Assembly (NCBI GenBank): GCA_033064195.1
Contig: JARBJD010000289.1
Span: 29,508 to 93,507 of the forward strand
Source of the DNA: Blattamonas nauphoetae
Lineage: Eukaryota > Preaxostyla > Oxymonadida
DNA length: 64,000 nucleotides
Reading direction: 5' to 3'
Shown here: positions 9,942 through 50,731 of the stretch, one piece after another
Layout: each line of letters begins with the position of its first letter
Numbering within the stretch: position 1 is the stretch's first letter
Program-made: the position numbers and the translations under genes
The notes under the pieces: generated by a model
The model's database searches: none
Told to the model about the DNA's origin: nothing
Seen by the model: only the letters and a program-made list of their open reading frames with translations

Positions 9942-11382
9942 AAGTTTAGTCACAGTCGGCAAATTGTGTGTCCTAGTCGACTTTGTTTCGAATTTGACTG
10001 ACAGCAATCGGCTCTAGAACGAGAATTCATCAAAAATCAACGAAAAAGAGTCGCCAAACTGTTATCTTCACGAATATCGGCGCGTACGGAGCAGCCTGTT
10101 TCGACTCCACATACCCGTCCCGCACGAAAGTGAGGAGGGCAGCCATGGCGAGTGCCTTGGACCTTCTCCACTCCCTCTTCTGATGTTCAGGTGCGCTTTT
10201 TTCGGGCTGAGGACATTTGAAAGCTTTTTCGAAGGGAAGCTCTGTTTTGTTCTCCTTGTTGAATTGATAGGCGACAAGCTCCAACATGTCACGGGTCTTG
10301 CTGTCAGAGTAAGGAGGTGGAGGCTCGCTTGTGGGACCAAGAGGGCGAGACGGGGCCATCGTGTGGTGTGGGCTGTTGGTTATCGAGTTGAAGTCTGGCG
10401 AGTTGCATGCGAGAATCCTCGACTGGATGTCGCGAACCGTTTCGTCCGTCAACATTCCCTCCGGCTGCCCTTCCGTGCCTGTGGAGCTCTGCGGTGTCAT
10501 GAACTCGTCCATGGCTCCTTGCCCTTCAAATGGTCCGGGGGACTGGAGTTCTTCAAACACTCCATCAAATCCAGGTGGGGTGGGCGTGCTGTTCGGGATT
10601 GTTTCTTGGTGATGTCCTCTGAAGGGGTAGGGCGAGTCGTTTGAGGAAGTATTTTCGTTGGTTTGGCGTGGTTCCATACCAGCGTCTTCGCCTTCAGCAT
10701 CCGGAGAAGAGAGAAGAATGAATGAAAACATCAAGAAAGAGCAATACCAGTGCGAACAGTTTGAGAGACAGGTGGCTCGATTTGAATGGGGGGCGCGGCA
10801 AGGTATGTTTTGCTCTTGATCGCTTTCAGCCTTTCCAGATAAGCTGATGGGTCGAAGTGAATCTGTTTCTTCCACTCCTCCATAAATGCATCTGTCGGAG
10901 GAACAAGGAGATCATCATCTGACCAGTTGTTGAGTGAGGGGAAGATGATCATTTGGCTCAACTCCATTGTCCTCACGATATCTCGTGTATCGTCTTGGTT
11001 GTCACTCATGGTCTGGTCACTCAGTGTAATGACTTGATCAATTATGACACCCTTATTTTGACTTGAGTCGGATTCAATTTGAGGACCTGATTGTTTTCGC
11101 TTTTTCTTCTTCGTAGAAGATTTGAGAGTCGCCAAATCGTCTTCCAGGAACAATGGAATCTTGTTTGACTGTTCTTGTGCTTGAGGTTCAGGATATTCGA
11201 ATCCTTCTTGCATTCCGGGCGTTGTTGTTGGTTGAAACGCAAGTGACGAGGAATCGGGATGATTATATTCTGATGGACGTTGGTTATAAAACTCAGTCGT
11301 TTCCAAGAATGTATCGAAGTCATGGATCTCTCCTTGTTGGTGAGCATGTTCGATCAGCCATCGAATCTCGTCGGGATCATTA

Positions 11383-11610
11383 CAGCTCGACTAGTTCTGA
11401 ATTGTATTTTAATTATTCAGAAATGAACATAATTGTTCAGAAATGTGTTTTGATTGTTCAGAAATGAACATGATTGTTCAGAAATGAATTTTAATTTTTC
11501 AGAAATGAACATGAATTATTCGTAAATGAACAGTGATTTTTCTGAAATGAACAATGATTATTCGGAAATGAACAGTGATTGTTCAGAAATGAACGGCTCT
11601 TTTTCGGATT
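11383..11610. repeat. Left inverted terminus with tandem iterons
   Basis: About nine imperfect copies of a roughly 24-bp unit with core TTCAGAAATGAACA, mirrored at the right end (13390-13592). Such arrays usually serve as transposase-binding sites; that role is inferred. Confidence 0.8.
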
Positions 11611-11719
11611 TATTTTTGAGACCACTCGTTTTAGAAAAGACTGACAGAACGAAGGGAAACACTCTTGTGTGGTGAATTATTGATGAAGCAGTTTATTCTT
11701 CAGGTTCTTCCACTCGTGG

Positions 11720-13297
11720 TCAGTGGTCTGGTGGCATGATTGCTTGCGGACTTGGAGCATGTGGGCCGTTCGAATCGCGGTTGAACTGTTCTTGTGTTCG
11801 ATTGAGAGCCAAATCACCTCGGCGAGCGATAATTGGATGAAGTCTGAGAGACACAAATCTGATGGCCGCGGATATCTTCCGATGAGGAATTGCACTGAGA
11901 GATTCCGAAAGATGAATCCGCAGTTGATCCTCTGTTCTGACATGAGAAGGAATCGAACTCCCACCTTTCCACATGCCAAAGACGTACTCGATCGGATTCA
12001 ACTCACATGAATTTGGTGGAGTGAACAGAGTTGTGTAATTTTTCGATCTGATGAGCTCTTTCACCTCATCCGTCTTGTGCAAGCCAACATTGTCCATAAT
12101 CAGTGTGCAGCTTTCATTCGTTCTTCTTTGAAGGGACTCAAAAAGTGAGAGGAGGAAATGTTGGAATTCAAGAGCAGACACAGTTCCTTGAACCCACGTC
12201 ACATGAACAACACCCCACGCTTCAGAGATCGCTGTGATTGCAGTGAGATTTTCCGTTTGCAATCGACGAACTCGTTGAAGGCAACGCTGACCGATTGGAG
12301 CACGACCTTGATTTTGGAAGCAGGTCTTGTTGAAGGAAGTTTCGTCGATGTAGACAGCAAATCCACCTTGAGAGAATGTTGTTGCGTATCGCTGAAGATA
12401 GTCGAGTCTCGCGTCCTTTGTTTCCTCCGAATTGCGTTCGTGTTGGAGCAGTTCGACTTTCTTCACAGTGAACTTTGTACACCCGTGTTCCACCATTTTT
12501 GGTGAAGTTAGGTGAGCATTGATTGTCGACACTGCAACCGATGTTCCATGATTCTCCTCGACGAGAGTTTTGAGTTCTTCTCCCTTCAAGAGTGGGTTTT
12601 GAAGAATTGCATCATTCATTGATCGTGAAATTTCTGGAGTGATTTTTCGATAGACTGCTCCCCCACGAGGCTTGGGAGCAGGTTTTCCAGATGCGATGTT
12701 GTTGATTGTTCCTTTCGAGATGTTCCACTTTTCGACAATCAAATCGTACTTCTTCCCTTCCTTCACTTCATCGAGGACCAATTCGCGTTCACGAGGCGTG
12801 AGAATGGTGTATGATCGTCGGGGCTTTGGGGCAGGACGAGAAGTTGGACGACCACGTTTCATCTTCTGAGGAGCTGGTAGTTCAACAAACTCATGAGGAT
12901 CTTGTGGAAGAAGAGGTTCAGGTGGGCTTGCACTATCAACTGCTTCAATTCTTTCTGGCAAGAGTCTTCGAAGTTCATCTTTCGATCGTTTGAGACTTGT
13001 TCGAATAAAATCCTGACTGAATCCGCCTGTGAGAAGCCCATCCTGCTGACTTTCCATCCCAGATTCACAATCAACAACTTCATCACCAAAGAACCATCCA
13101 TCCGATTCGTTGAGAGATTGGTATTGTATTTGTCTTTCGGTGATCGATGAGTTTTGAGACTCGTCAGTCTCAGATTCATCATCGATGAGAGAAAAGGAGC
13201 GTTCCATGAAATTTCGCGATGATTTTCCAGAAAAATCTTCTCCGTTTATCATCTGATGTCGCAATTGGAAATGGCTACGCGTAATTTTTTTAGACAA
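11720..13297 (-). CDS. DDE transposase of the iteron-bearing element
   Basis: A 525-residue protein, longer than typical Tc1 transposases because of an acidic N-terminal region of about 150 residues and a basic Pro-rich linker (KMKRGRPTSRPAPKPRRSY). A helix-turn-helix follows (LTPRERELVLDEV, WNISKGTINNI). The RNase H-like core has D in VYIDETSFNKT, D in LIMDNVGLHKT and E in SCELNPIEYVF, again with 34 residues between the second D and the E. No frame breaks. The gene occupies nearly all of the element between the iteron arrays. Confidence 0.9.
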   Translation of the reverse strand: MSKKITRSHFQLRHQMINGEDFSGKSSRNFMERSFSLIDDESETDESQNSSITERQIQYQSLNESDGWFFGDEVVDCESGMESQQDGLLTGGFSQDFIRTSLKRSKDELRRLLPERIEAVDSASPPEPLLPQDPHEFVELPAPQKMKRGRPTSRPAPKPRRSYTILTPRERELVLDEVKEGKKYDLIVEKWNISKGTINNIASGKPAPKPRGGAVYRKITPEISRSMNDAILQNPLLKGEELKTLVEENHGTSVAVSTINAHLTSPKMVEHGCTKFTVKKVELLQHERNSEETKDARLDYLQRYATTFSQGGFAVYIDETSFNKTCFQNQGRAPIGQRCLQRVRRLQTENLTAITAISEAWGVVHVTWVQGTVSALEFQHFLLSLFESLQRRTNESCTLIMDNVGLHKTDEVKELIRSKNYTTLFTPPNSCELNPIEYVFGMWKGGSSIPSHVRTEDQLRIHLSESLSAIPHRKISAAIRFVSLRLHPIIARRGDLALNRTQEQFNRDSNGPHAPSPQAIMPPDH

Positions 13298-14509
13298 TTT
13301 AAGGGTCCGATCAACCTTTTTTCATTTTTCAGAAGCCTGAATATAGCTTCTAAATTGCATCTGGACAACTCATTTTGATCCTTCATTTATGAAAAATTAG
13401 TATTCATTTCAGAAAAATCACTGTTCATTTGGGAAGAATCACTGTTCATTTCTGAACAATCTCTGTTCATTTCTGAACAATTATGTTCATTTCTGAAAAA
13501 TTAAAGTACATTTCTGAACAAGTATGTTCATTTCTGAATAATTAAAATCTATTTCTGAAAAATTACAATGCATTTCAGAACTAGTCGAGCTGTATTTGGC
13601 GTCACGAAAACCTAACAAGAAGAAGCAGCACAGTCATGGATGAAAAAAGAGACATACCGTAGGAATATCGCTCATTAAATTGTCTGCCGCTCCCGCAAAG
13701 TAATCAGACTCTCTGAAATCGTATCCGTCCTTCATCGGTGTTCTCAGCTGATTCGAGGGGAGTGTGAACGGTGAAAGTGATGAACGAAGAGATTCCGGGT
13801 CGGTCAGCGTCGGGTCCGGCATGAGCAGCGATGGCCGTGGATATCCAAATATGTTTAGAGTTGGATCGCGAGGTGTGGACATATTCAAAGGTGGATCTGG
13901 TATTGTGATGTGTGACCGAGTTGCCTTCTTCCCACCAGGAGGAAGATCGATATTGGATGTGTATAAAGTCTATATAGAGAGAAAAGAAGCAAAAATGTTG
14001 TGAAAAAAGAAACTCACAATAGAAATGTCAACAAAGGTTTGTCAGCGATATAGTCTTGGAAAAAGCATACAGTGTTCAGGCGTGACTGAAACTCATTGAT
14101 GTCATCCGCCAAGTATTTCAGTTTCCGCGTATAAACTCGAATGAGTCCAAGCAGGAGATGCGCTTGATACCGAAGGGGAAGAGGTATCTTTTCTTCGGAT
14201 TCTCTTCTGTTGGAATACCTTCTCTGATGATCTTTACGGCTGCGGGAATGTTTATTTGGAGAATCTTGCCTTTAGACAGATTTCGGTCATAGTTCGCTGC
14301 AATCCATACTTGGCCCAGGGGACTAAGTCAATCAAAAGAAGTCTTAAAGAAGACACAAATATACCCATGCTTAGATATATATCGCGAAAATAATGCCATG
14401 ACGTGTGGCCAAGGTTGATCTAGCCCTTAATTCTCAGTAATCGGTTACTTCTGATTCAGACAAAGACATTGCGAAGTGATAATTCCCGAAGTCGATTTAA
14501 TCCCAATGA

Positions 14510-16191
14510 TTATTCATCTGGGGGATTCCAGACACCTTGTTCGATAAAGTCCAGATGTTTCTCAAAACAACTTGATGCCATCCTCATTTCAGTCACTTGG
14601 ATTTGATATAGGAGATCAAGCTTGGTCGTTCGTTCTGATTGTTCCAATCCTGCCAATTCTTCCTCGTGCTTGAGGTACAAGTCCCGTTTGACCTGCCAAA
14701 ATGAGGATGAATGAATCAGACATCAACTCTGAAGTCTTTCACAAGCTCTGCATTCTTCTGATCGAGAACACGCCATCTGAAAATGAAACGACATCGGCGG
14801 AGTTGTTCCTGAGAGAGTCGGAGAGAATAGAAAGGACCTTGATGATTGGAACTTTGGACTGAATGTCGGAGATGATAAGATTCGAGAAAGGAGCAACGGC
14901 CTCGTTCTGGCGAAACTGAAAAATGTGGTTACGACGAAGGTGGGCCATGTCAACCAAAGTGCGCATCATTTTAAACCTTCATTGGAGAGAGAAACAGTAA
15001 TTGAAAAAGCACACTGAACTGACTGCAGCTCGACGGTAATCAGAGTGACATTGCTCTTCTTTGAGAGTGATTACACCGTATCGGTAAGATAAGTGGCATG
15101 ACCCTGATGGTGGAATGGTGGAAAGACGAGAACTTGACTGAGAAGGATAAACCATGCTAGAGCAGACCTGATTCTCCACAAGGAAGAATTTGGAAAATGG
15201 AAGAAACGGTACACGGTTGCATAGCCAACAATTCTGAAATCAACACGTGGGGGATTTGAACCGTCCCCACGTTTGTTTGTCTTCTTGTACCTGAAATCGG
15301 AGAGTATTGAAGAAGAAAATAGTACATCAAATAGACGTCCCAATTTGCATCGTCTTCATCGAGATAAGATGCATTGTTGACGAAGAAGAATGACATGGCC
15401 ATCAAATTTTTACGAAAGACCTTCATATCTGGGTCTGGAAAGGGTGTCTGGAAAAAAGAACGATGAATCGAATGGAAATGAAGAAAGGGCTCTAAAATAA
15501 CAAACACAATAGATTTGGAAGATCGCATTACCAAGCGGAGTCGAAGAACTTTCATTTGGATTGTGCGGAGGACAAGGCATATACTCGCGAATTGGTTTCC
15601 ATGGGAGGTGAAATTCATCTGTGTTCTCCGATTGTTGGATGATATTCAAGAATGATGTTTTTCAATGAGAATGACAAACATTTGAGAATCAGTTTCTATC
15701 TCTCGAGAGTGTGCAGCGATTCAGATAGGTGAGAATATTTTTCGAGGGGGTCTCGAGCTTAAAATACCAATGAGAGAGATTTTTCGAGATTGCACACAGC
15801 ATCGTGAAGAAAACGGAACGAACAACTTGCGGCGTCGATTCTCCCAACTATTGTTCATAAACACAATTGAATGTGTCTCCTTGGATAAAGCAATCAATGC
15901 GAACTGTTTCATACCCAGGAATGATTTGGGCCTCTCCAAAAAAGGGTACGTTTGCATTGGTGGAAATGATGAGAGAGGCTGATTAAAATATGCTCCATCA
16001 ACTGAAGATCAGTGTTGCAGAGAGAATATGTTGTCACAGGGGGTAAATAAAAGGATGGGCATATTGAAATGGAAGGTTATTGCATCGTTAGCTGGAATTG
16101 GTGGGAATGGTATTGTGAGGGTGCGAGGACGAAACTGAAAGACGACAGAATGCTGAGCGAGTGTTGTCAGAGTCGGAGGGAGCGAAAGCAT
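14510..16191 (-). pseudogene. HAT1 type B histone acetyltransferase, copy 1, frameshifted
   Basis: Same gene as 41900-43580. Copy 1 has six A instead of five at about 15936-15941. That breaks the frame inside the conserved segment reading KRTLFGEAQIIPGYE in copy 2. The remaining exons, including the acetyl-CoA-binding segment and the C-terminal helix, are unchanged. Either a genuine recent mutation or a homopolymer error in the assembly would explain it. Confidence 0.7.
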
Positions 16192-17331
16192 TTGTGCGGA
16201 CGGCCCACTTCATGCGTTCATCGTTGTGGAGGGCGGTGATGATGGCGATGCGGGAGACTGGGCGTGTCACACTCCTCCATCCCTTGTATTTCTGATCCCA
16301 CAAATCCGCTCCTCACATCCGAGACCAGATCTCTTCGCTCACCGACAGTTGCCCGTGCAATTGACTCACATTCGAAAACTGTCTTGCCAGGAGCTTCTGC
16401 CGGGTGTGAACTCAGCGACAGGATGTTGGAACAAGCTGACCTCAGAACTGGGCACTGAATTGTCGATCCAGCGATGTGCGGAGGAACTGCTTCTTCCCCA
16501 TTCAACTCCGATTCCAGACCTCCCGATCGATGTGGATCGCCCCTTCCACGGGCGGGATTGGGGTGAAGTCGTGAGGAGGCAAGGAGCGCAAGTAATGCTG
16601 CCGTGGGAGGTTTCGGGATTCGCCAGCACCATCAAAGGTGTGGAGAGGCCCAGTGCGAGCGTGCCATCACTCCCGACAACTCCGACACAGCTGTTCGTCC
16701 TTTTCCCTCAGCCCCTTCCTCGCTCTTCAACTTCCCTTCCATCCAATCAATCTCTCCACACCCAATCGCCTCCACGTCGCTGTCGACTCGAGCACCTACC
16801 AAGTTGATCCATACAGTTGTCCGTGTGGGTGGCGTGCTCGTTTCCAGCGATCCCTGCGACAGGCGGAACGCCTCCGTGTCTTTACTATCTCCAAAGTCAC
16901 AAAAATATCACCTTGTTTCATCAAGATGAGAAATCTCTCGAATGTGTTGACAAATCAAACAACACGATCGAGTCGAAATCTACGGTGCCAAATCTGACAG
17001 GAGAATCATCGTCTTGCTGTTTGGCCGCGAATGAGTGGCTTCCCACAATCCTGAAGTCGCCATCAGCAATCGTGGAAAGTGTCCATTGTTCGTGAGATCA
17101 GATACCTCAAAATCTGAACTTTTTGTCGGAAATAATCATCCATGTTCTTCAACATCTCCTTCCACTCTGATCTTCAAAAGTGGCTCCATTTCGAAAATAA
17201 CAGGCTCGCTTTCATGAATGTTCTTCACTCGTTCCAACTCGACAGCCAGGATGGTTTCCATCTTATCAACGCTCATTGGCGAGAGTCTGGTTGCGGAGTG
17301 AGAATATAAAGATTCACCAAGAAAGGATAAA
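16192..17331. other. Unresolved region between HAT1 and separase, copy 1
   Basis: Overlapping open segments on both strands (plus 16226-16807, 193 aa; minus 16366-16635 and 16218-16505), none recognised. An 80-bp segment, 16716-16795, closely matches 24077-24156 in the polymerase-delta relic; in the minus frame both read DSDVEAIGCGEI. The divergent promoters of HAT1 (minus) and separase (plus) should lie here, but no motif stands out. Confidence 0.35.
16716..16795. repeat. 80-bp segment shared with the polymerase-delta relic
   Basis: About 90 percent identical to 24077-24156 and present again in block 2 at about 44105-44184. The shared reading frame on the minus strand (DSDVEAIGCGEI) suggests a fragment copied from a gene rather than a mobile repeat. 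Confidence 0.7.
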
Positions 17332-20300
17332 ATGACATCATTCAAGCAAATAATGACTCGATCTTCCCAAAGATTTTTTGACAAGATGTCGTCAAACCAA
17401 TTTCGCTGTCAATCGATTCCAACTCATTGTGCCTCATCAGAAATACGATTTCCTTCTGATCCCAACTCTGAGTCTTCGGAGTCGCCAGAACAGGTTACTT
17501 CCCTGATTCAAACCGAACCATCAGAAATCATGAATTCATCTGTACCACAAATTGAACAGAATAGACAAGGACCAAAATCATCCAACTCGCTTCATTCATC
17601 CCTTCAAATGCGGATTGTACCATCCAAAACGTCTGAAATCACTCTCCCCCACAATTCCTTCAAGAAGTGTTTACGCACTATTTCCTCGCTGAAACGGGGA
17701 TTCGACCTTAGAAACAGGTGGTGGTGGACATATCCAATCAGCACATTCGGTGACGAACGCCACAACGAGTCTGTGAGTGATGTCCGAGAAATGAGAATTG
17801 AACTGGACCAACTCAAAGTTCCCATCCAACAACTTGATGGTACCATTCTTTCTGAACTATGTGAAACCGATCCACGAGCGTGTGACTTACTTTCGTTCTC
17901 TTCTGATGACAACAACGAGAAAATCTGTCCAACACGGTTTGTCAATGAAATACAAAATGGATTCGCACTTTTCACACCAGATGTCCTCCAATCGTGTAAT
18001 GAGTCATCGGATCATCGATATTACCTCGCGTTTCTTTTATACAGCCGAGCATCATTTTACGAAGGCTTTTGTCTACAACAACCACCACAAGCCCCTCTGG
18101 TCGACTTGTCGATCAGAGACTGTAAGACAGCCTTACAAATACTACATTTTCGTGAAGATAAACCCGACGCCACAAACACATTTCCTCTTTTCTTGACATT
18201 GAAGAATTGAAAGCCCTTGTCTTCGGGTTGCTCGGTCAATCTCTTCGGCATTATGACCTCTCTCGCTCAAACAGACTCGATCGAAAGAGTGGGTCGACCA
18301 TTGACGATCCCATCTCCCACTTGCAAGGAAAGGAGATCCAAACTTTATCGAAACAAACCAATCTTGTGCAACACTGTTTTCTGGACGCATTGAAATGTCT
18401 GGATTCAGCTCTCAGTCGAGCCACTCTTCTGAATTTTCAGCATCTCTCGTCCATTTTCGTCCTTTTGACACAAACCATTATTCCATACGGGAAGCTGTGC
18501 GACAATCTCCACCTCTGTCTTTGGGCATGTGAGATCTGGTCTCGCCTCAGTCCGCCTGTCATGATCAACGGACTGCTGCGAAAAACAGAAGCTTGGCAAC
18601 TTCAGGCTCTTCACGAGGCAGACACCGAAGTTGGCGACCCACCAACTCAGCTGGAAATGAAGCCAGCAGAAACGGATGACCGAAATGGTTTGTTGTTCTC
18701 TCATCATTCACATGTTCAGTTGAACTCCATCTTCTTGGACATCTGTCTGCGAAACTGCAAGCAGGATGTCTTCTGGCAGATTCTGAATTCGACACGCTGG
18801 GATTATCTCAATTGGAATCAGTGAAAAGGGAGCTTCCGTTGCATCTTCAACCGTGCTTATCAGCGAGACACCTGAATTCTGTAAACAAACCACCGATCAA
18901 TCCTAATCATCTTTCAACGGATATTCACACACAACGCGACCCTTCACATGTGGATCAGGCATCTCAAGAACTTCGACAAGCACTTCTGAACACGCCACTG
19001 CCACTTCATCTCTCAATGAACTCGCAAAAGAACGAACCAGGGAATGCAAAACAGGATCGGACAAGGAAAGGGGAACAACCCACACCGACTGTCCTTATCA
19101 AGCTCTCCAACAAAGCACCCCGCCTCTTTGTGAGGGGCCTTTGCTTTGTTTGGGGCCAGATGAGAATTCTGGAAGGGAAACTGTGCGCGATGGAAGGAAA
19201 ATGGGAGGAAGCAATCTCATCAACCGAAGAAGCGATCAGGTACTTGGACTTTCTCCTCAGATTCCCACATGTCCATACGACCAGTCAATCGACCACGTCG
19301 TCTCGTCAGGATCAGCGAAAGACTGACACGACTCGTCCTGTGTGGACAGACATCATCGACGTTGCTCTGATCAGATCGATGCTTTGCGAATGCTACTCGT
19401 TCAAAGGGAAGGTGTTCAGACTGAATGGAATGCCGATCGAGGCAGAGTCGGCACTTCAGACGCAGTTGTCACAGATCATCCGGAACGTCATTCCGACGCC
19501 AAAAGAAGAAACCCCACTCCCGCCATCCACATCAGATACATTTTATTCATTGCTCCACGCTTGTTTCTCGGTCGAGGACGACATCAAACTCCTTCTGCCC
19601 TTGCCATCAACCCCTCTCTGCATTGTCAACACAACATTTGACCTCATCATCCAAGTCGGTCGGATCTCAATTGAAACGGCAAACTGGAAGCATCGAGAAT
19701 GGGCACATCAAAACGTTGCGGAAGCCTTTGCTGTGCTTGCTCGACTTCCTGCGAGTAAACTGGCAGCTGTCATTCTGGAGAGGATCGAACTTGCAACGAA
19801 ACGAAATGAATACACAGCTGTTCTTCATCTGATCGAGTATCTGGAGACGATTCTGGAAGTTCAGACTTCAGCTCAGAAAGTCCCGTTTCGAGCAGAACTG
19901 AAGAAGATCACTGCCCTACACGCCTCGCCGATTGATGAGAGCTCTGAAGGGATGGAAGTCATGTCGAAGCTCCCCGATTCCAAAACCGACAAGTCTACCT
20001 TTCAAGCATTCATCACACAATGTCTCAACCCGACCGAGTTCTCCTTCATCCCCATTCACGCCTTTCATTTCCTCCTCGTCTCCACTCTCCACTGCCTTCG
20101 CCGTCCTTTCCCACTTCCTCCGACATTCATGCAATTTGTCCCACATTCTCAATCAGACCATCCTACGCCAACAGAATCACCAGCCCACATTAACACCGAC
20201 CCAACATGCTTCATGAGTCCGAAAACGGACCGAAGACTGATGGTGCGAACACCGAGCAAGAAGACACCAGCTGAAGCGTCACGGACACCGACGTTGATTG

Positions 20301-23332: not shown

Positions 23333-23375
23333 CTTTCTTGATAGAATCTCTTCTTTTGCCTCGTCAGTGGTGGTA

Positions 23376-23558: not shown

Positions 23559-23629
23559 AAAAAGCACGAAGGAAATGAAAATTCAATTCCGGAATGGCAA
23601 ACATTCCTCAGCTCGTAGGCGGCAACAAT

Positions 23630-32332: not shown

Positions 32333-32338
32333 CCATCT

Positions 32339-39147: not shown

Positions 39148-39331
39148 GATATCGGTTTAAGGTCCAAATCCGATCGAACAATCATCGATCTTTTCACTTC
39201 AACAGACTCTTTTGGATCTATATTTTAGGAAAAGGCAAGTGCCGACTTGGTGGGTCAAAAGTGCACGAGACGTTGGATCATTTATAAGATCGTTCTTCGC
39301 TTATTTCACTCATCCATTTCAACTACTTTTT
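39148..39331 (+). repeat. R183, copy c
   Basis: Block-2 counterpart of 9547-9730. Confidence 0.9.
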
Positions 39332-39542
39332 CAAAATATGTAAGATAGCAAAAAACTGTACGGAAACAAAACTAAACGAAAAAGTCCAACAATTGGGTAG
39401 GACCTCGCACAAGTTTTTCTGCCGTTCCGAGATAATGGATGTGATATTTGTGGGATTTCCAGAATAAAAGTGGTATTTTGATGGGAGGTGGGTGGGACTG
39501 ACACATGCCTATCATACAGTGCCACCGCTAGAAGCAAAATTA
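39327..39542 (-). repeat. R216, copy c
   Basis: Block-2 counterpart of 9726-9941. Confidence 0.9.
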
Positions 39543-39630
39543 AAGTTTAGTCACAGTCGGCAAATTGTGTGTCCTAGTCGACTTTGTTTCGAATTTGACT
39601 GACAGCAATCGGCTCTAGAACGAGAATTCA

Positions 39631-41789
39631 TCAAAAATCAACGAAAAAGAGTCGCCAAACTGTTATCTTCACGAATATCGGCGCGTACGGAGCAGCCTGT
39701 TTCGACTCCACATACCCGTCCCGCACGAAAGTGAGGAGGGCAGCCATGGCGAGTGCCTTGGACCTTCTCCACTCCCTCTTCTGATGTTCAGGTGCGCTTT
39801 TTTCGGGCTGAGGACATTTGAAAGCTTTTTCGAAGGGAAGCTCTGTTTTGTTCTCCTTGTTGAATTGATAGGCGACAAGCTCCAACATGTCACGGGTCTT
39901 GCTGTCAGAGTAAGGAGGTGGAGGCTCGCTTGTGGGACCAAGAGGGCGAGACGGGGCCATCGTGTGGTGTGGGCTGTTGGTTATCGAGTTGAAGTCTGGC
40001 GAGTTGCATGCGAGAATCCTCGACTGGATGTCGCGAACCGTTTCGTCCGTCAACATTCCCTCCGGCTGCCCTTCCGTGCCTGTGGAGCTCTGCGGTGTCA
40101 TGAACTCGTCCATGGCTCCTTGCCCTTCAAATGGTCCGGGGGACTGGAGTTCTTCAAACACTCCATCAAATCCAGGTGGGGTGGGCGTGCTGTTCGGGAT
40201 TGTTTCTTGGTGATGTCCTCTGAAGGGGTAGGGCGAGTCGTTTGAGGAAGTATTTTCGTTGGTTTGGCGTGGTTCCATACCAGCGTCTTCGCCTTCAGCA
40301 TCCGGAGAAGAGAGAAGAATGAGTGAAAACATCAAGAAAGAGCAATACCAGTGCGAACAGTTTGAGAGACAGGTGGCTCGATTTGAATGGGGGGCGCGGC
40401 AAGGTATGTTTTGCTCTTGATCGCTTTCAGCCTTTCCAGATAAGCTGATGGGTCGAAGTGAATCTGTTTCTTCCACTCCTCCATAAATGCATCTGTCGGA
40501 GGAACAAGGAGATCATCATCTGACCAGTTGTTGAGTGAGGGGAAGATGATCATTTGGCTCAACTCCATTGTCCTCACGATATCTCGTGTATCGTCTTGGT
40601 TGTCACTCATGGTCTGGTCACTCAGTGTAATGACTTGATCAATTATGACACCCTTATTTTGACTTGAGTCGGATTCAATTTGAGGACCTGATTGTTTTCG
40701 CTTTTTCTTCTTCGTAGAAGATTTGAGAGTCGCCAAATCGTCTTCCAGGAACAATGGAATCTTGTTTGACTGTTCTTGTGCTTGAGGTTCAGGATATTCG
40801 AATCCTTCTTGCATTCCGGGCGTTGTTGTTGGTTGAAACGCAAGTGACGAGGAATCGGGATGATTATATTCTGATGGACGTTGGTTATAAAACTCAGTCG
40901 TTTCCAAGAATGTATCGAAGTCATGGATCTCTCCTTGTTGGTGAGCATGTTCGATCAGCCATCGAATCTCGTCGGGATCATTATTTGGCGTCACGAAAAC
41001 CTAACAAGAAGAAGCAGCACAGTCATGGATGAAAAAAGAGACATACCGTAGGAATATCGCTCATTAAATTGTCTGCCGCTCCCGCAAAGTAATCAGACTC
41101 TCTGAAATCGTATCCGTCCTTCATCGGTGTTCTCAGCTGATTCGAGGGGAGTGTGAACGGTGAAAGTGATGAACGAAGAGATTCCGGGTCGGTCAGCGTC
41201 GGGTCCGGCATGAGCAGCGATGGCCGTGGATATCCAAATATGTTTAGAGTTGGATCGCGAGGTGTGGACATATTCAAAGGTGGATCTGGTATTGTGATGT
41301 GTGACCGAGTTGCCTTCTTCCCACCAGGAGGAAGATCGATATTGGATGTGTATAAAGTCTATATAGAGAGAAAAGAAGCAAAAATGTTGTGAAAAAAGAA
41401 ACTCACAATAGAAATGTCAACAAAGGTTTGTCAGCGATATAGTCTTGGAAAAAGCATACAGTGTTCAGGCGTGACTGAAACTCATTGATGTCATCCGCCA
41501 AGTATTTCAGTTTCCGCGTATAAACTCGAATGAGTCCAAGCAGGAGATGCGCTTGATACCGAAGGGGAAGAGGTATCTTTTTCTTCGGATTCTCTTCTGT
41601 TGGAATACCTTCTCTGATGATCTTTACGGCTGCGGGAATGTTTATTTGGAGAATCTTGCCTTTAGACAGATTTCGGTCATAGTTCGCTGCAATCCATACT
41701 TGGCCCAGGGGACTAAGTCAATCAAAAGAAGTCTTAAAGAAGACACAAATATACCCATGCTTAGATATATATCGCGAAAATAATGCCAT
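39631..41789 (-). CDS. RAD21/SCC1 cohesin kleisin, copy 2 (intact-looking)
   Basis: The alpha-kleisin that closes the SMC ring and is cut by separase. The start exon (41755-41789) reads MALFSRYISKHG. A 42-nt intron (41713-41754) joins it to PLGQVWIAANYDRNLSKGK, the family N-terminus. Then come HLLLGLIRVYTRKLKYL, a 101-nt intron (41359-41459) leading to NIDLPPGG and ITIPD, and a 46-nt intron (41001-41046). The central block has KKKKRK followed by VIIDQVITLSDQTM and DDTRDIVRTMELS. A 56-nt intron (40293-40348) precedes an acidic Pro-rich stretch. The C-terminus starts like the winged helix (EWRRSKALAMAALLTF) but ends early, so it is short compared with the family. Two separase-type motifs, DPESLR and TDETVR, are present. 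It starts 110 bp after the HAT1 stop on the same strand. REC8 identity is not excluded. Confidence 0.9.
40033..40050 (-). other. Second candidate separase cleavage motif in RAD21
   Basis: Encodes TDETVR followed by D, matching the ExxR core, in the disordered stretch before the C-terminal domain. Counterpart in copy 1: 10432-10449. Confidence 0.45.
41173..41190 (-). other. Candidate separase cleavage motif in RAD21
   Basis: Encodes DPESLR followed by S, which fits the separase consensus (acidic, x, E, x, x, R). It lies between the N-terminal domain and the central block, as in known kleisins. Counterpart in copy 1: 13784-13801. Confidence 0.55.
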
Positions 41790-41899
41790 GACGTGTGGCC
41801 AAGGTTGATCTAGCCCTTAATTCTCAGTAATCGGTTACTTCTGATTCAGACAAAGACATTGCGAAGTGATAATTCCCGAAGTCGATTTAATCCCAATGA

Positions 41900-43580
41900 T
41901 TATTCATCTGGGGGATTCCAGACACCTTGTTCGATAAAGTCCAGATGTTTCTCAAAACAACTTGATGCCATCCTCATTTCAGTCACTTGGATTTGATATA
42001 GGAGATCAAGCTTGGTCGTTCGTTCTGATTGTTCCAATCCTGCCAATTCTTCCTCGTGCTTGAGGTACAAGTCCCGTTTGACCTGCCAAAATGAGGATGA
42101 ATGAATCAGACATCAACTCTGAAGTCTTTCACAAGCTCTGCATTCTTCTGATCGAGAACACGCCATCTGAAAATGAAACGACATCGGCGGAGTTGTTCCT
42201 GAGAGAGTCGGAGAGAATAGAAAGGACCTTGATGATTGGAACTTTGGACTGAATGTCGGAGATGATAAGATTCGAGAAAGGAGCAACGGCCTCGTTCTGG
42301 CGAAACTGAAAAATGTGGTTACGACGAAGGTGGGCCATGTCAACCAAAGTGCGCATCATTTTAAACCTTCATTGGAGAGAGAAACAGTAATTGAAAAAGC
42401 ACACTGAACTGACTGCAGCTCGACGGTAATCAGAGTGACATTGCTCTTCTTTGAGAGTGATTACACCGTATCGGTAAGATAAGTGGCATGACCCTGATGG
42501 TGGAATGGTGGAAAGACGAGAACTTGACTGAGAAGGATAAACCATGCTAGAGCAGACCTGATTCTCCACAAGGAAGAATTTGGAAAATGGAAGAAACGGT
42601 ACACGGTTGCATAGCCAACAATTCTGAAATCAACACGTGGGGGATTTGAACCGTCCCCACGTTTGTTTGTCTTCTTGTACCTGAAATCGGAGAGTATTGA
42701 AGAAGAAAATAGTACATCAAATAGACGTCCCAATTTGCATCGTCTTCATCGAGATAAGATGCATTGTTGACGAAGAAGAATGACATGGCCATCAAATTTT
42801 TACGAAAGACCTTCATATCTGGGTCTGGAAAGGGTGTCTGGAAAAAAGAACGATGAATCGAATGGAAATGAAGAAAGGGCTCTAAAATAACAAACACAAT
42901 AGATTTGGAAGATCGCATTACCAAGCGGAGTCGAAGAACTTTCATTTGGATTGTGCGGAGGACAAGGCATATACTCGCGAATTGGTTTCCATGGGAGGTG
43001 AAATTCATCTGTGTTCTCCGATTGTTGGATGATATTCAAGAATGATGTTTTTCAATGAGAATGACAAACATTTGAGAATCAGTTTCTATCTCTCGAGAGT
43101 GTGCAGCGATTCAGATAGGTGAGAATATTTTTCGAGGGGGTCTCGAGCTTAAAATACCAATGAGAGAGATTTTTCGAGATTGCACACAGCATCGTGAAGA
43201 AAACGGAACGAACAACTTGCGGCGTCGATTCTCCCAACTATTGTTCATAAACACAATTGAATGTGTCTCCTTGGATAAAGCAATCAATGCGAACTGTTTC
43301 ATACCCAGGAATGATTTGGGCCTCTCCAAAAAGGGTACGTTTGCATTGGTGGAAATGATGAGAGAGGCTGATTAAAATATGCTCCATCAACTGAAGATCA
43401 GTGTTGCAGAGAGAATATGTTGTCACAGGGGGTAAATAAAAGGATGGGCATATTGAAATGGAAGGTTATTGCATCGTTAGCTGGAATTGGTGGGAATGGT
43501 ATTGTGAGGGTGCGAGGACGAAACTGAAAGACGACAGAATGCTGAGCGAGTGTTGTCAGAGTCGGAGGGAGCGAAAGCAT
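41900..43580 (-). CDS. HAT1 type B histone acetyltransferase, copy 2
   Basis: HAT1 acetylates newly made histone H4 before chromatin assembly. Exon-like segments in order: PANDAITFHFNM; KRTLFGEAQIIPGYETVRID; WKPIREYMPCPP with NAIFQIY; KNLMAMSFFFVNNASYLDED; IVGYATVYRFFHFP; QVLVFPPFHHQGHATYL, the GNAT acetyl-CoA-binding motif A (here HHQGHA); and a C-terminal helix VKRDLYLKHEEELAGLEQ ending at a TAA at 41900-41902. Frame changes between segments imply several short introns whose ends I could not all fix. The exact start is uncertain (43580 or downstream). It precedes RAD21 on the same strand. Confidence 0.82.
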
Positions 43581-44721
43581 TTGTGCGGACGGCCCACTTC
43601 ATGCGTTCATCGTTGTGGAGGGCGGTGATGATGGCGATGCGGGAGACTGGGCGTGTCACACTCCTCCATCCCTTGTATTTCTGATCCCACAAATCCGCTC
43701 CTCACATCCGAGACCAGATCTCTTCGCTCACCGACAGTTGCCCGTGCAATTGACTCACATTCGAAAACTGTCTTGCCAGGAGCTTCTGCCGGGTGTGAAC
43801 TCAGCGACAGGATGTTGGAACAAGCTGACCTCAGAACTGGGCACTGAATTGTCGATCCAGCGATGTGCGGAGGAACTGCTTCTTCCCCATTCAACTCCGA
43901 TTCCAGACCTCCCGATCGATGTGGATCGCCCCTTCCACGGGCGGGATTGGGGTGAAGTCGTGAGGAGGCAAGGAGCGCAAGTAATGCTGCCGTGGGAGGT
44001 TTCGGGATTCGCCAGCACCATCAAAGGTGTGGAGAGGCCCAGTGCGAGCGTGCCATCACTCCCGACAACTCCGACACAGCTGTTCGTCCTTTTCCCTCAG
44101 CCCCTTCCTCGCTCTTCAACTTCCCTTCCATCCAATCAATCTCTCCACACCCAATCGCCTCCACGTCGCTGTCGACTCGAGCACCTACCAAGTTGATCCA
44201 TACAGTTGTCCGTGTGGGTGGCGTGCTCGTTTCCAGCGATCCCTGCGACAGGCGGAACGCCTCCGTGTCTTTACTATCTCCAAAGTCACAAAAATATCAC
44301 CTTGTTTCATCAAGATGAGAAATCTCTCGAATGTGTTGACAAATCAAACAACACGATCGAGTCGAAATCTTACGGTGCCAAATCTGACAGGAGAATCATC
44401 GTCTTGCTGTTTGGCCGCGAATGAGTGGCTTCCCACAATCCTGAAGTCGCCATCAGCAATCGTGGAAAGTGTCCATTGTTCGTGAGATCAGATACCTCAA
44501 AATCTGAACTTTTTGTCGGAAATAATCATCCATGTTCTTCAACATCTCCTTCCACTCTGATCTTCAAAAGTGGCTCCATTTCGAAAATAACAGGCTCGCT
44601 TTCATGAATGTTCTTCACTCGTTCCAACTCGACAGCCAGGATGGTTTCCATCTTATCAACGCTCATTGGCGAGAGTCTGGTTGCGGAGTGAGAATATAAA
44701 GATTCACCAAGAAAGGATAAA
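43581..44721. other. Unresolved region between HAT1 and separase, copy 2
   Basis: Counterpart of 16192-17331, with one extra T near 44370. No gene assigned. Confidence 0.35.
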
Positions 44722-47700
44722 ATGACATCATTCAAGCAAATAATGACTCGATCTTCCCAAAGATTTTTTGACAAGATGTCGTCAAACCAATTTCGCTGTC
44801 AATCGATTCCAACTCATTGTGCCTCATCAGAAATACGATTTCCTTCTGATCCCAACTCTGAGTCTTCGGAGTCGCCAGAACAGGTTACTTCCCTGATTCA
44901 AACCGAACCATCAGAAATCATGAATTCATCTGTACCACAAATTGAACAGAATAGACAAGGACCAAAATCATCCAACTCGCTTCATTCATCCCTTCGAATG
45001 CGGATTGTACCATCCAAAACGTCTGAAATCACTCTCCCCCACAATTCCTTCAAGAAGTGTTTACGCACTATTTCCTCGCTGAAACGGGGATTCGACCTTA
45101 GAAACAGGTGGTGGTGGACATATCCAATCAGCACATTCGGTGACGAACGCCACAACGAGTCTGTGAGTGATGTCCGAGAAATGAGAATTGAACTGGACCA
45201 ACTCAAAGTTCCCATCCAACAACTTGATGGTACCATTCTTTCTGAACTATGTGAAACCGATCCACGAGCGTGTGACTTACTTTCGTTCTCTTCTGATGAC
45301 AACAACGAGAAAATCTGTCCAACACGGTTTGTCAATGAAATACAAAATGGATTCGCACTTTTCACACCAGATGTCCTCCAATCGTGTAATGAGTCATCGG
45401 ATCATCGATATTACCTCGCGTTTCTTTTATACAGCCGAGCATCATTTTACGAAGGCTTTTGTCTACAACAACCACCACAAGCCCCTCTGGTCGACTTGTC
45501 GATCAGAGACTGTAAGACAGCCTTACAAATACTACATTTTCGTGAAGATAAACCCGACGCCACCAAACACATTTCCTCTTTTCTTGACATTGAAGAATTG
45601 AAAGCCCTTGTCTTCGGGTTGCTCGGTCAATCTCTTCGGCATTATGACCTCTCTCGCTCAAACAGACTCGATCGAAAGAGTGGGTCGACCATTGACGATC
45701 CCATCTCCCACTTGCAAGGAAAGGAGATCCAAACTTTATCGAAACAAACCAATCTTGTGCAACACTGTTTTCTGGACGCATTGAAATGTCTGGATTCAGC
45801 TCTCAGTCGAGCCACTCTTCTGAATTTTCAGCATCTCTCGTCCATTTTCGTCCTTTTGACACAAACCATTATTCCATACGGGAAGCTGTGCGACAATCTC
45901 CACCTCTGTCTTTGGGCATGTGAGATCTGGTCTCGCCTCAGTCCGCCTGTCATGATCAACGGACTGCTGCGAAAAACAGAAGCTTGGCAACTTCAGGCTC
46001 TTCACGAGGCAGACACCGAAGTTGGCGACCCACCAACTCAGCTGGAAATGAAGCCAGCAGAAACGGATGACCGAAATGGTTTGTTGTTCTCTCATCATTC
46101 ACATGTTCAGTTGAACTCCATCTTCTTGGACATCTGTCTGCGAAACTGCAAGCAGGATGTCTTCTGGCAGATTCTGAATTCGACACGCTGGGATTATCTC
46201 AATTGGAATCAGTGAAAGGGAGCTTCCGTTGCATCTTCAACCGTGCTTATCAGCGAGACACCTGAATTCTGTAAACAAACCACCGATCAATCCTAATCAT
46301 CTTTCAACGGATATTCACACACAACGCGACCCTTCACATGTGGATCAGGCATCTCAAGAACTTCGACAAGCACTTCTGAACACGCCACTGCCACTTCATC
46401 TCTCAATGAACTCGCAAAAGAACGAACCAGGGAATGCAAAACAGGATCGGACAAGGAAAGGGGAACAACCCACACCGACTGTCCTTATCAAGCTCTCCAA
46501 CAAAGCACCCCGCCTCTTTGTGAGGGGCCTTTGCTTTGTTTGGGGCCAGATGAGAATTCTGGAAGGGAAACTGTGCGCGATGGAAGGAAAATGGGAGGAA
46601 GCAATCTCATCAACCGAAGAAGCGATCAGGTACTTGGACTTTCTCCTCAGATTCCCACATGTCCATACGACCAGTCAATCGACCACGTCGTCTCGTCAGG
46701 ATCAGCGAAAGACTGACACGACTCGTCCTGTGTGGACAGACATCATCGACGTTGCTCTGATCAGATCGATGCTTTGCGAATGCTACTCGTTCAAAGGGAA
46801 GGTGTTCAGACTGAATGGAATGCCGATCGAGGCAGAGTCGGCACTTCAGACGCAGTTGTCACAGATCATCCGGAACGTCATTCCGACGCCAAAAGAAGAA
46901 ACCCCACTCCCGCCATCCACATCAGATACATTTTATTCATTGCTCCACGCTTGTTTCTCGGTCGAGGACGACATCAAACTCCTTCTGCCCTTGCCATCAA
47001 CCCCTCTCTGCATTGTCAACACAACATTTGACCTCATCATCCAAGTCGGTCGGATCTCAATTGAAACGGCAAACTGGAAGCATCGAGAATGGGCACATCA
47101 AAACGTTGCGGAAGCCTTTGCTGTGCTTGCTCGACTTCCTGCGAGTAAACTGGCAGCTGTCATTCTGGAGAGGATCGAACTTGCAACGAAACGAAATGAA
47201 TACACAGCTGTTCTTCATCTGATCGAGTATCTGGAGACGATTCTGGAAGTTCAGACTTCAGCTCAGAAAGTCCCGTTTCGAGCAGAACTGAAGAAGATCA
47301 CTGCCCTACACGCCTCGCCGATTGATGAGAGCTCTGAAGGGATGGAAGTCATGTCGAAGCTCCCCGATTCCAAAACCGACAAGTCTACCTTTCAAGCATT
47401 CATCACACAATGTCTCAACCCGACCGAGTTCTCCTTCATCCCCATTCACGCCTTTCATTTCCTCCTCGTCTCCACTCTCCACTGCCTTCGCCGTCCTTTC
47501 CCACTTCCTCCGACATTCATGCAATTTGTCCCACATTCTCAATCAGACCATCCTACGCCAACAGAATCACCAGCCCACATTAACACCGACCCAACATGCT
47601 TCATGAGTCCGAAAACGGACCGAAGACTGATGGTGCGAACACCGAGCAAGAAGACACCAGCTGAAGCGTCACGGACACCGACGTTGATTGGATTGATGGA

Positions 47701-50700
47701 TGGACGGCCTGTTGTCGGGGCTTCTCAACAATTTGTCTGTCGACCAGAGTCAGTGTTCGATCAACAGGCTCTGGAGACAGTTTACAGATTGCTGCTTCAT
47801 TTTGTGGTGGCGATTTTATCATTCCAACGGAACGACATTCGGAAACTGTTTGTGAAGGACGAAAACAAAGGCAAGTCGACGATGACTGACGAACTGTTGA
47901 TCTTCATTTTTGGCAGGTCACAGAAGAAACCACTTCGGTCGTCGTTCCATCTGCAGCTGTCACCCATCATCGTCTCTCTCTTCAGATGGTCCATCCATTT
48001 AGATGATAAACCAAAATTGATTGACCAAATGCTCCAACAGATGAAATGCAAGACATTGAATCTCTGGTCGATCACAAACAACAAACAGATTTGCCTTGCT
48101 CCGAAGCAGATGTCTGAATTGTTGATGTTGTTCTCTGTGGGATTGATCAAGCAGCTTCCCAACAGAGACGAATTCGACAAGATCTGGTTGGCAGAATCCA
48201 CCCAGCCCGACGAAAGAATACGAGAAATCCGCCGATTTCTGTCATCTGCCTACACGCTGAGCGGGATGAATGGAGGAGGCGATTCTCTGCACAGGAACAT
48301 CAGCGCTTTGAATGCGTTCGTGTGGGGAAAGGACGATCCATGGCGGACATCATTTTTCATGTTTGACTCGATCTCCTCCGCTGATCGTCACACGATTCTG
48401 ACGATGCTGAAGTCGCATCTATCTCAGAATCAATCACAGTCAGAGCCAGGGTTCGCGAGCGACGAATCGAAGAGACATCCGCTGTGGTCCGAAGTTGGGA
48501 AGGAAGATTTGGAAGTGATCTATCAGTTGAACTCGTTCCACGTGGACGACGTGAAACAAAGGCCGTCGAATCAACAAGACTCAGTCCAATCTTCTGATTC
48601 TCTGATTGAATCCATCGTTGCGCTATTTCGACAGCGAATGCAGAACATCCCTCCAACGTTTGTTCCAACATGTCTGACAGTGGTTCCATTCTTCCATTCA
48701 ACTCTCTGCCTGTCGATGATTCCGATTGCGTCGCTTCCTAATCCATTCATCAGTCTTCATCTCATCCAAAAGACCATTTTGAGTGACGCTACAGAACTGT
48801 CAGAAGAAAGGAATGATGACCACCTCAAAGCGGAAGAAACGGAAGTGACAAATCAAAGTGTGGAAGAAAGACTCTCAATCGCACCCCACCCACGACGTCT
48901 GATTCTTCCGATTCGATCCAATGTGATACCTCTTCAGCTCCGCTCTCGATCCACCCCTCCCCGGAAGTCAAACCCTCCAATCTCCACTCCAATCGCCACT
49001 CGCCGTGTTGTCCACTTCAGTGACCATGTTCCGAGCGCGATCGCAACTCCGCCTCCTCGCACAGCTCAACCAAAACCGGTGAAGAAGCGGACCACACAGA
49101 AAACACGAAAGAAACCCCCGACTCGAGGAAACGAGAATGGGAAGCAGGTGGTTCTGATGCCTCCTGTTGAATGGCCTCCTTCAGGAGGCCACGCGACGAA
49201 TTTGCTCGTCCCCACTCCTGTTCGTGCTGGTGGCCGTGTTCGATTCGCAACAAGCATCGATCGCGATGACGACCCCTTCAGTTTCAACCCAGCCCCCAAA
49301 ACGAACAACGCACTCCTGTCGCCCACGCTCCCCACTCCACAATCAACTCCGAGATTACGGTCGAGATCACAGGCGCGGTCACCAGCTCGACCACCTGTGG
49401 TTGTGCTCAGAGACGATTCAGATTCAGATTCCGGTTTTGAATTGTTGTCAGCAGAAAGGGGGCTTGCTTCACCAACCGAACTGAGAACGAACGCCCAAAC
49501 CCCGATGGTACCAATGACAGACGATGAGATCTTTGGGTGGAGGAATGATGGGAAGGACCTGGGAATTGATGTGAATCGGAACGGATGGATTGGAGAGACA
49601 ACAAAGGAGCTTCATCGCATTCTGAACGAAGACCACGTCGTCACGAAGCGTATCATGGTGCTAGGGGGCGATCAATGGTGGAAGCTTCGCTCGCAGCTCG
49701 ACCGAGACATGGAAGTGCTCTGCATCCGACTCAGCCGCGTCCTGAGACGAAGTGGAGTGGAGTTGGATTGGACGAAGCAGAAGTCTTCGGAGGGAGACGA
49801 GGAGTCGGTGATGTTGCGGGATGATGGAGAATGCGATGAGACTGACGAGGTTGTGATTGGGAAGAAGAGGAGCCTGCCTGCAATTCCGAGAAACGAGACA
49901 CGAAAAGCCCCTCGACGATCGATCTTCCGTGTTTCGACGCCAAGTCCAGAACTTGAGGTGATTGAGCAGGACGAAGATCTCCCGTTGGTGCTGCTCTTCC
50001 TCTCACCCGAACTCATCTCGTTCCCGTGGGAGAACACGCGGCAACTGCAGCACAGGCCGGTTGCAAGAATGACCAGTCTGTCTGCATTCCTCACTCGCCT
50101 CCAGCAGCTCGAACAGACAACACCGACTCCTCTGTTCTCGTGTCTTCCAACTCATCCACTCATCGAGGGAGTTGATCCGCAAAGTGTCTGCTGCGTTATC
50201 AATCCAGATGGAAATCTGAATAACTGGTCTCAACTCATCCAGCCACATTTGCTGCCGAGCTGGACACGTCACATCGACGAACGGCCAACTCGTGAGCAAT
50301 TCAAATCAAATCTCCAGAGCCACGATGTGTATTTGTGCTGTGGACATGGAGGTGGACAACACCTCTATTCGAAGAATCAGCTCTCGAAGCATGCGAGACT
50401 GCCGGTCATGTTGATGATGGGTTGCAGCAGTGGACGGAGGGCCTTTGATGGAGAATATGATGCGTGGGGGTACGTGGATGTGTGTGAGCAGTCGAATGCG
50501 TCTGCAATTCTCGGCAATCTTTGGGATGTACTTGATGGAGACGAGAACAGTCTCGTTGTTGATCTTCTGGAAAAGTGGTTGGGAAACGATCAAGAAAAAA
50601 GGAAGTCCCTCCACCAATGTCTGACTCACGCAAGGCAGAAATGTCGAGCCAAGTATCTTGTTGGGGCAGCGATGGTTGCGTATGGATTCCCGATTTTTGC

Positions 50701-50731
50701 AGCGAGTCCGGAACCGAAACATCTTTCTTGA
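44722..50731 (+). CDS. Separase, copy 2
   Basis: Same architecture as copy 1. The first 497 codons are continuous here because the C missing in copy 1 is present at about 45562. The 32-nt intron is 46079-46110. After it, the A-run at about 46215 has three A where copy 1 has four, so the frame closes within 18 codons and resumes from 46229. The catalytic His (50345-50347) and Cys (50423-50425) are intact. The conserved block reads LGNLWDVLDGD: the Gly is standard but a Leu replaces the usual Thr. The end is EPKHLS then TGA. Substitutions relative to copy 1 are concentrated after 49620. Confidence 0.93.

Follow-up and report, generated by a model that had tools for sequence, protein, structure and literature searches.

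The stretch of DNA analyzed here (the window, 64 kb) makes up one end of a contig from Blattamonas nauphoetae, an oxymonad, and contains a PDS5 gene flanked on both sides by near-identical blocks, copies A and B, each carrying RAD21, HAT1, and separase (Table 1). Self-comparison of the window shows that the blocks are 99.86% identical over 8.3 kb and 99.60% identical over 9.8 kb. Halves of the 396-bp repeat next to RAD21 B recur at 23376-23563 and, inverted, at 32338-32554. An initial annotation had recognized RAD21, HAT1, PDS5, and two separases, and these identities are borne out by Pfam and PDB matches. It had also described RAD21 and separase as divergently transcribed, about 2.9 kb apart, with HAT1 between. 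The spacing (2.93 kb, 41789 to 44722) and the intervening HAT1 hold, but HAT1 sits head-to-tail upstream of RAD21 and reads the same way, so the divergent pair is HAT1/separase rather than RAD21/separase.

Table 1. Features of the window, with the basis for each assignment
Feature	Position	Strand	Basis
Block copy A (RAD21-HAT1-separase plus ~6.5 kb of flank)	3082..23371		Identity to B; transposon interrupts at 11383-13592
RAD21-type kleisin copy A, broken	10030..14399	-	Upper limit derived by hand from copy B
Tc1/mariner-like transposon, 2.2 kb, in RAD21 A	11383..13592		Inverted ends, TA target duplication
HAT1 copy A	14510..16123	-	Second HAT1 copy of the window
Separase copy A	17332..23332	+	Peptidase_C50 E 6.9e-40; GHG, GCSS motifs
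POLD1 (DNA polymerase delta) C-terminal remnant	23714..24061	-	67% identity, residues 712-827 of the C801 POLD1 ORF
Separase leader remnant, joined to POLD1 remnant	24066..24156	+	91% to 44093-44184
PDS5, several exons	26302..32332	+	PF20168 in three ORFs
Block copy B	32687..50761		Identity to A and listed A/B differences
396-bp repeat directly 3' of RAD21 B	39148..39543		Second copy at 9547-9942 (self-comparison)
RAD21-type kleisin copy B, intact	39631..41789	-	Gene model, Pfam and PDB matches
HAT1 (histone acetyltransferase type B) copy B	41900..43512	-	PDB HAT1 match, hand-spliced piece
Separase copy B	44722..50731	+	Peptidase_C50 E 2e-40; PDB separin 7nj1 E 2.9e-33; GHG, GCSS motifs

RAD21 B is modeled as a 637-residue protein encoded by five exons (41789-41755, 41712-41460, 41358-41047, 41000-40349, and 40292-39631) with four GT-AG introns. 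The initial annotation had named both terminal RAD21 domains as a check. The N-terminal, SMC3-binding domain is clear (Rad21_Rec8_N, E 2.5e-22, 79.6 bits against a Pfam cut-off of 23.1), and the protein matches the PDB RAD21 chain 7zjs (E 1.8e-15); the PDB chains matched by RAD21, HAT1, and separase (separin) are presumably human. The C-terminal, SMC1-binding winged helix (Rad21_Rec8) is less so: the C-terminal piece scores 11.7 bits, below the cut-off of 22.7, Pfam does not list the domain for the full-length protein up to E 1, and a genome search with it returned three matches, all on other contigs. The middle segment and the C terminus align to 7zjs in the correct order, each non-significant alone (-0.1 and 2.3 bits). 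The middle segment aligns with residues 317-354 of 7zjs, which we take to be STAG-binding, and DDTRDI[VM]R, which lies inside this non-significantly aligned segment, was dropped as a separase site. Candidate sites are DPESLR, in six of the nine RAD21 copies listed, and D-E-x-x-R, at about residue 500 in the full-length form and present in five of the nine. ExxR, the minimal separase cleavage site, is frequent in proteins generally, according to PMC6858450. RAD21 A, initially noted as a broken twin, is indeed disrupted, both by the transposon, which sits within the fourth exon, and by a 1-nt difference that falls in the N-terminal domain. The element, presumably of the Tc1/mariner class, carries a transposase ORF (11720-13297, minus strand) that matches DDE_3 (E 4.9e-21).

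In separase B, annotated proteins place an intron at about 46079-46110, and the frame is shifted by a 1-nt difference to A at 46214; the frame of separase A is shifted by a 1-nt difference to B at 18172. Upstream of the peptidase domain there is weak similarity to separin (14.6 bits). Catalytic His and Cys motifs are both present in seven of the nine separase pieces examined (a set that leaves out C578, C214, and the C2 fragment), and the two shortest have one each. For HAT1, a 100-residue hand-spliced piece matches PDB HAT1 chains 9mjg and 2p0w (E 9.3e-15), a 137-residue piece gives just Acetyltransf_1 (E 0.1) and DUF3122 (E 0.18) in Pfam, and a genome search with Hat1_N has the C2 paralogue as its sole match (E 1.8e-5). 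Within the PDS5 region, PF20168 is matched by three ORFs with E values of 1.8e-38 (132.5 bits), 1.3e-5, and 6.1e-9 (34.7 bits), the second of which is below the cut-off of 27, and the ORF at 28390-30567 has no PF20168 match.

PDS5 had been regarded as single copy, which is true inside the window only. DNA similarity reveals PDS5-like DNA on 11 other contigs, or at least 12 loci with the window; copies on C824 (89%) and C235 (85%) are near full length, and nine further contigs have collinear partial matches. Genome searches found a RAD21 or separase match on none of these 11 contigs, although some of the copies are close to the beginning of their contig (e.g. C5:2-4 kb), where contig breaks could hide linkage. 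The placement of PDS5 near RAD21 and separase does not convincingly exceed chance, and it looks like coincidence.

Could blocks A and B be two alleles that were placed end to end in the assembly? Because their neighbors differ on the left (other DNA versus the PDS5 end) as well as on the right, A and B do not qualify as simple alleles; the transposon, moreover, is present in A only. We consider such an artefact unlikely, even though an identity of 99.6-99.86% is in the range that alleles can show and the two separases carry different 1-nt frameshifts, like poorly polished repeats, in an assembly polished with Nanopore and Illumina reads (as described in PMC10703272). A/B is the youngest separase-bearing copy pair found in the genome, and among the loci counted below the possible alleles are A/B, the C261 pair, and C431/C578.

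RAD21 of this type is found at 12 loci (nine counting near-identical pairs once), five of them disrupted as assembled, and is distinct from two further kleisins in the genome. Separase is also found at 12 loci, 10 from the genome search plus C578 and C214 (10 counting near-identical pairs once), and several are truncated. With five SMC-hinge, three NIPBL, and three STAG loci in all, whole-genome duplication was rejected. A separase lies within 10 kb at six of the 12 RAD21 loci, on five contigs, and a RAD21 within 10 kb at seven of the 12 separase loci, compared with 0.027 such pairs expected for scattered sets of 12 and 10 loci. This linkage is above chance, yet it is explained by shared descent. 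The recurring neighbors of RAD21 are HAT1 and POLD1, with HAT1 DNA directly upstream at 11 of 12 loci. Separase lies on the opposite side of RAD21 on C324, and a second separase lies beyond RAD21 on C2. Linkage is kept at six of the 12 RAD21 loci despite rearrangement, which counts against the origin proposed below and could also be explained by selection. The RAD21 and separase trees of four linked contigs give the same split (C211 and C2 versus C324 and C431), an agreement that for four taxa has a one-in-three chance of arising randomly. At many loci, homology on the RAD21 side stops ~100 bp beyond the stop codon. A mobile cassette with fixed ends was considered and dropped, as C833 and C261 share ~1.5 kb of flank 3' of RAD21 (95% identical); flank decay therefore suffices.

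The POLD1 remnant between separase A and PDS5 bears on how the linkage arose. This remnant matches zf-C4pol with an E of 0.00035, below the cut-off, or 1.2e-7 with one TGA inside, and DNA common to the window and the C235 PDS5 locus starts at 24159, past the separase leader remnant. On C431 and in the window (24061/24066), the junction between the separase leader and POLD1 coincides to within one base, and the POLD1 of C2 is uncut at that point. POLD1 precedes HAT1-RAD21 on C2 and RAD21 on C801; of nine POLD1 zinc-finger matches, six have HAT1 or RAD21 directly downstream of them, and the window remnant accounts for one more. The junction was read at two loci only, with the POLD1 piece missing in blocks A and B themselves, and its identity at both suggests that the linkage probably goes back to one rearrangement and was spread by duplication.

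Given the observed gene identities, copy numbers, recurring order, and junction at two loci, we think that the arrangement probably arose by lineage-specific segmental amplification, with one rearrangement and then block copying. The older neighborhood was probably POLD1, HAT1, and RAD21, all in the same direction. A single rearrangement would have cut POLD1 and set the separase leader head-to-head against the POLD1 3' piece, thereby putting separase beside HAT1 and RAD21. The block of separase, (POLD1 piece) HAT1, and RAD21 would then have been copied across the genome, accompanied by losses, truncations, and transposon insertions, and PDS5, one of many PDS5-like copies, would have landed after the leftover separase/POLD1 junction. 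The encoded proteins would be ordinary cohesin parts, RAD21 closing the SMC ring and separase cutting RAD21, and the extra copies of both may be redundant or diverging. As in other segmental duplications of linked genes, there are a common gene order, decaying flanks, and pseudogenes; unlike in those, the copied set happens to include a protease and its presumed substrate.

The initial annotation had noted a three-gene cluster that might reflect either co-regulation or chance linkage kept by duplication. The latter agrees with the duplicated block and the POLD1 scar, nothing points to co-regulation, and a selected functional cluster is unsupported, with the RAD21-HAT1-separase block duplicated and PDS5 linked at one of the 12 PDS5-like loci found. 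Linkage of RAD21 and separase (plus PDS5 and SCC3) could still have been selected because it balances ring against cutter in dose or timing, for instance through the divergent HAT1/separase promoter region. The seven linked separase loci, the linkage kept on C324 and C2 where the order is altered, the constraint on the SMC3-binding domain of RAD21, and the position of an SCC3/STAG gene (C2:141 kb), with a RAD21 locus on either side, are consistent with such selection, which we nevertheless judge quite improbable. No partner was found within 10 kb of five of the 12 separase and six of the 12 RAD21 loci, including the intact RAD21 of C1; the five SMC-hinge and three NIPBL loci lie elsewhere (at the closest, an SMC hinge is 57 kb away from the RAD21 of C1); at several loci the intervening HAT1 has been truncated or has lost internal sequence; and the junction is a POLD1 scar.

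RAD21 itself evolves unevenly, with a dN/dS of 0.19 in the N-terminal domain and of 1.20 (bootstrap 0.87-1.69) in residues 421-637, the latter not significantly above 1. Relaxed constraint yields the same pattern, and the five of 12 copies disrupted as assembled also speak against conflict-driven amplification, in which RAD21-separase pairs would multiply and diverge through transmission gain or mutual suppression as in drive systems. We regard such conflict as highly improbable, although the fast-evolving region fits it, as does the multiplication of RAD21 and separase while the SMC hinge remains at five loci. A further, very unlikely, possibility is that the blocks are co-duplicating substrate-protease pairs, in which each separase would prefer the RAD21 it travels with, the linker and C terminus would diversify between pairs, and several partly insulated circuits of cohesin release would result. 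Were this so, the circuits might serve different chromosomes, divisions, or stages.

A search of titles and abstracts found no publication describing a RAD21-separase-PDS5 arrangement, and cohesin, separase, kleisin, and Rad21 all go unmentioned in the main text of PMC10703272. The genes combine familiar and unusual features: RAD21 resembles RAD21/SCC1 kleisins in its N-terminal domain but has a C-terminal domain that scores below threshold and 12 loci in one genome, separase has the C50 peptidase domain with its His and Cys motifs but also 12 loci, several truncated, and PDS5 has PF20168 but belongs, by DNA similarity, to a multi-copy family. To our knowledge, most eukaryotes have one or few RAD21-type kleisins and one separase. 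An apparent functional cluster can arise from one rearrangement and duplication, and comparing paralogous loci inside one genome can help to tell the two readings apart. Of most interest are the specific expansion of RAD21 and separase, the conserved SMC3-binding domain, and the fast-evolving rest of RAD21. With a dozen loci each of RAD21 and separase against five SMC-hinge loci, this oxymonad offers a natural case for studying dose and pairing in the cutting of the cohesin ring.

The initial annotation read RAD21, separase and PDS5 in the window as a possible functional cluster of cohesin genes, with chance linkage preserved by duplication as the alternative. The rest of the genome does not support the first reading and backs the second, and the linkage of RAD21 with separase is likely explained by segmental amplification after one rearrangement that broke POLD1.

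The gene naming itself was good gene-finding, with RAD21, separase, PDS5 and HAT1 all recognised by Pfam or PDB matches. RAD21 copy B has a 637-residue gene model of five exons and four GT-AG introns; its N-terminus matches Rad21_Rec8_N (Pfam, E 2.5e-22), and its top PDB match is RAD21 7zjs (E 1.8e-15). Its C-terminal domain scores under the Pfam cut-off, searching the genome with that domain yielded three matches, all outside C211, the contig carrying the window, and a profile of eight RAD21 copies aligned to the RAD21 middle and C-terminal segments in the correct order at insignificant scores (−0.1 and 2.3 bits). The C50 domain is present in separase of both blocks, and the alignment of separase B to PDB separin spans the GHG and GCSS motifs, both kept in copy A. 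Of four consecutive ORFs, three are recognised as PDS5. Compared with the PDB, a hand-spliced piece of 100 residues identifies HAT1 (E 9.3e-15); a longer piece is unrecognised by Pfam, and the Hat1_N genome search found a paralogue on contig C2 as its only match and not the window HAT1.

The window (C211:29508-93507) is the terminal 64 kb of its contig, which is 93,507 bp long. Protein searches match BLNAU_20421 and BLNAU_20410 of the oxymonad Blattamonas nauphoetae. The assembly examined comprises 88.3 Mb in 837 contigs; the genome paper of this species gives 88.54 Mb, 879 contigs, 44.96% GC and 25,221 genes (PMC10703272). Near the contig end lie complex tandem and inverted repeats with units of 216 and 358 bp (57742-59815), and beside them an ORF (59844-61457) with DUF5906, VapE-like and weak bromodomain matches that contains six TTAGGG units (61366-61401). 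Two transposase ORFs lie left of block A, at 703-1836 (HTH_Tnp_Tc3_2 and DDE_3) and 2060-2986 (DDE_Tnp_IS1595).

Duplicated blocks of the window and the stretch in which they differ most
Feature	Window position	Comparison
Block copy A	3082-23371	99.86% (8.3 kb) and 99.60% (9.8 kb) identity to B
Block copy B	32687-50761	99.86% (8.3 kb) and 99.60% (9.8 kb) identity to A
A/B difference-rich stretch	21959-23367 (A), 49349-50757 (B)	31 of 37 right-part events

The blocks differ by 10 events in the left part and 37 in the right, the latter concentrated in the final 1.4 kb, in and just past the separase end. At 32 A/B-differing sites in the 3′ part of separase, all eight other separase copies mix A-like and B-like bases; judged from sequence, this suggests gene conversion, which would give such a mixture. 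Exon 4 of RAD21 copy A is split by a Tc1/mariner-like transposon with a TA duplication. Each separase copy carries one single-base frameshift absent from the other (18172 in A, 46214 in B), and these are equally likely to be real mutations or repeat-polishing errors.

Genome-wide, Rad21_Rec8_N gave 16 matches grouped into 14 loci, 12 of them RAD21 loci like those of the window and the other two, at C801:90.7 kb and C1:194.7 kb, distinct kleisins. RAD21 is intact at full length at five of the 12 (C211B, C1, C261a, C2 at 160 kb and C578), shortened at two (C324, whose projected frame has one stop close to its end, and C801) and disrupted as assembled at five (C211A, C833, C261b, C2 at 118 kb and C431), by single bases only at C833 and C261b. 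The separase peptidase domain gave 11 matches at 10 loci, and a 5′ search added C578 (truncated where its contig begins) and a C214 fragment for a total of 12, a count that excludes short matches to the leader alone on C826, C90 and C445. Some pairs may be allelic or very young; collapsing C211A/B, C261a/b and C431/C578 leaves nine RAD21 loci, and collapsing C211A/B and C431/C578 leaves 10 separase loci. C261:20-34 kb holds two near-identical inverted units of POLD1 piece, HAT1 and RAD21, with RAD21 exons alike to two decimals and an open RAD21 frame in one copy only. At C1:196.5-200.6 kb the C-terminal half of a distinct kleisin gene recurs as an inverted copy ~3 kb away, a palindrome-like repeat inside an 853-kb contig.

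Separase is divergent from HAT1-RAD21 in both window blocks, on C431 and C578, and, as a fragment, on C2. On C324 it lies tail to tail with RAD21, on the 3′ side, and on C2 a second, long separase lies downstream of RAD21 in the same direction. The partner is within 10 kb at 6/12 RAD21 and 7/12 separase loci, on five contigs. HAT1 sequence stands immediately upstream of RAD21 at 11 of 12 loci; at C801, ~100 bp of the region is left. Nucleotide trees of RAD21 (12 copies) and separase (10 copies, excluding C578 and C214, where the part used is absent) share a matching split among the four linked contigs with both genes, an agreement compatible with joint duplication that has a one-in-three chance of arising for four taxa. 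The region C2:115-170 kb, denser than the window, packs two RAD21 and two separase loci into 55 kb, together with POLD1, HAT1 and one SCC3/STAG locus.

On C801, the ORF upstream of RAD21 encodes DNA polymerase delta, with DNA_pol_B at E 1e-147 and zf-C4pol at E 1.2e-13, and POLD1 precedes HAT1-RAD21 at C2:115.4-116.6 kb. Six of nine zf-C4pol matches in the genome lie immediately upstream of HAT1 or RAD21 (C2, C801:37.5 kb, C261 twice, C431 and C578); the others are a window remnant, a C214 match adjoining the separase fragment and C801:181 kb. At window 23714-24156 and on C431, a POLD1 C-terminal piece is fused to the separase leader, and the two junctions coincide give or take one base; at this point on C2, POLD1 coding sequence runs on. 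In blocks A and B, no POLD1 piece separates HAT1 from separase. The simplest reading of the shared junction is a single rearrangement, then duplication: one event would have broken POLD1 and brought separase in, duplication would have spread the resulting separase/POLD1/HAT1/RAD21 arrangement, and blocks A and B would have lost the intervening POLD1 piece.

PDS5, described initially as single copy, has related DNA on at least 11 other contigs when the interblock segment serves as DNA query, a lower bound from 40 of 130 candidates scored. The copies on C824 (89%) and C235 (85%) are nearly full length, and at least nine more contigs show partial collinear matches. None of the 11 has a RAD21 or separase match; contig breaks may hide linkage on C5, C649 and C432, where the contig begins no more than 10 kb from the PDS5-like copy. 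Homology to the C235 locus restarts immediately past the separase-leader remnant, at window 24159, which indicates that PDS5 came to adjoin a leftover junction. Our confidence in amplification is slightly lowered by the limit that contig ends place on the PDS5 test and by the one-base tolerance of the junction.

Independent scatter of 12 RAD21 and 10 separase loci predicts 0.027 pairs within 10 kb, a test that common descent makes moot. Two other cohesin genes were seen near such loci, the window PDS5 and a STAG gene at C2:141 kb that is separated from the separase fragment by 16 kb and from the nearer RAD21 by 18 kb. For 12 other cohesin loci and 13 regions of ±25 kb, the probability of two or more is 0.004, or ~0.015 by hand arithmetic when PDS5 is counted as 12 PDS5-like loci (23 loci in all), a weak value because it takes no account of the many other combinations of genes that might have caught the eye.

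RAD21 dN/dS, estimated from non-independent pairs of the five copies that are intact over full length, rises along the protein: residues 1-100 give 0.19 (bootstrap 0.11-0.32), residues 101-200 0.33 (0.22-0.49), residues 201-420 0.67 (0.49-0.89) and residues 421-637 1.20 (0.87-1.69). This gradient indicates that the SMC3-binding end is kept; the C-terminal third is either evolving freely or diversifying, which the method cannot tell apart. Genome searches, giving lower bounds for large families, found five SMC-hinge loci in all, three STAG and three NIPBL C-terminus loci. Set against just five SMC-hinge loci, the expansion of RAD21 and of separase stays notable; it is specific and, given pairwise dS of 0.14-0.47 among seven RAD21 copies, recent-looking.
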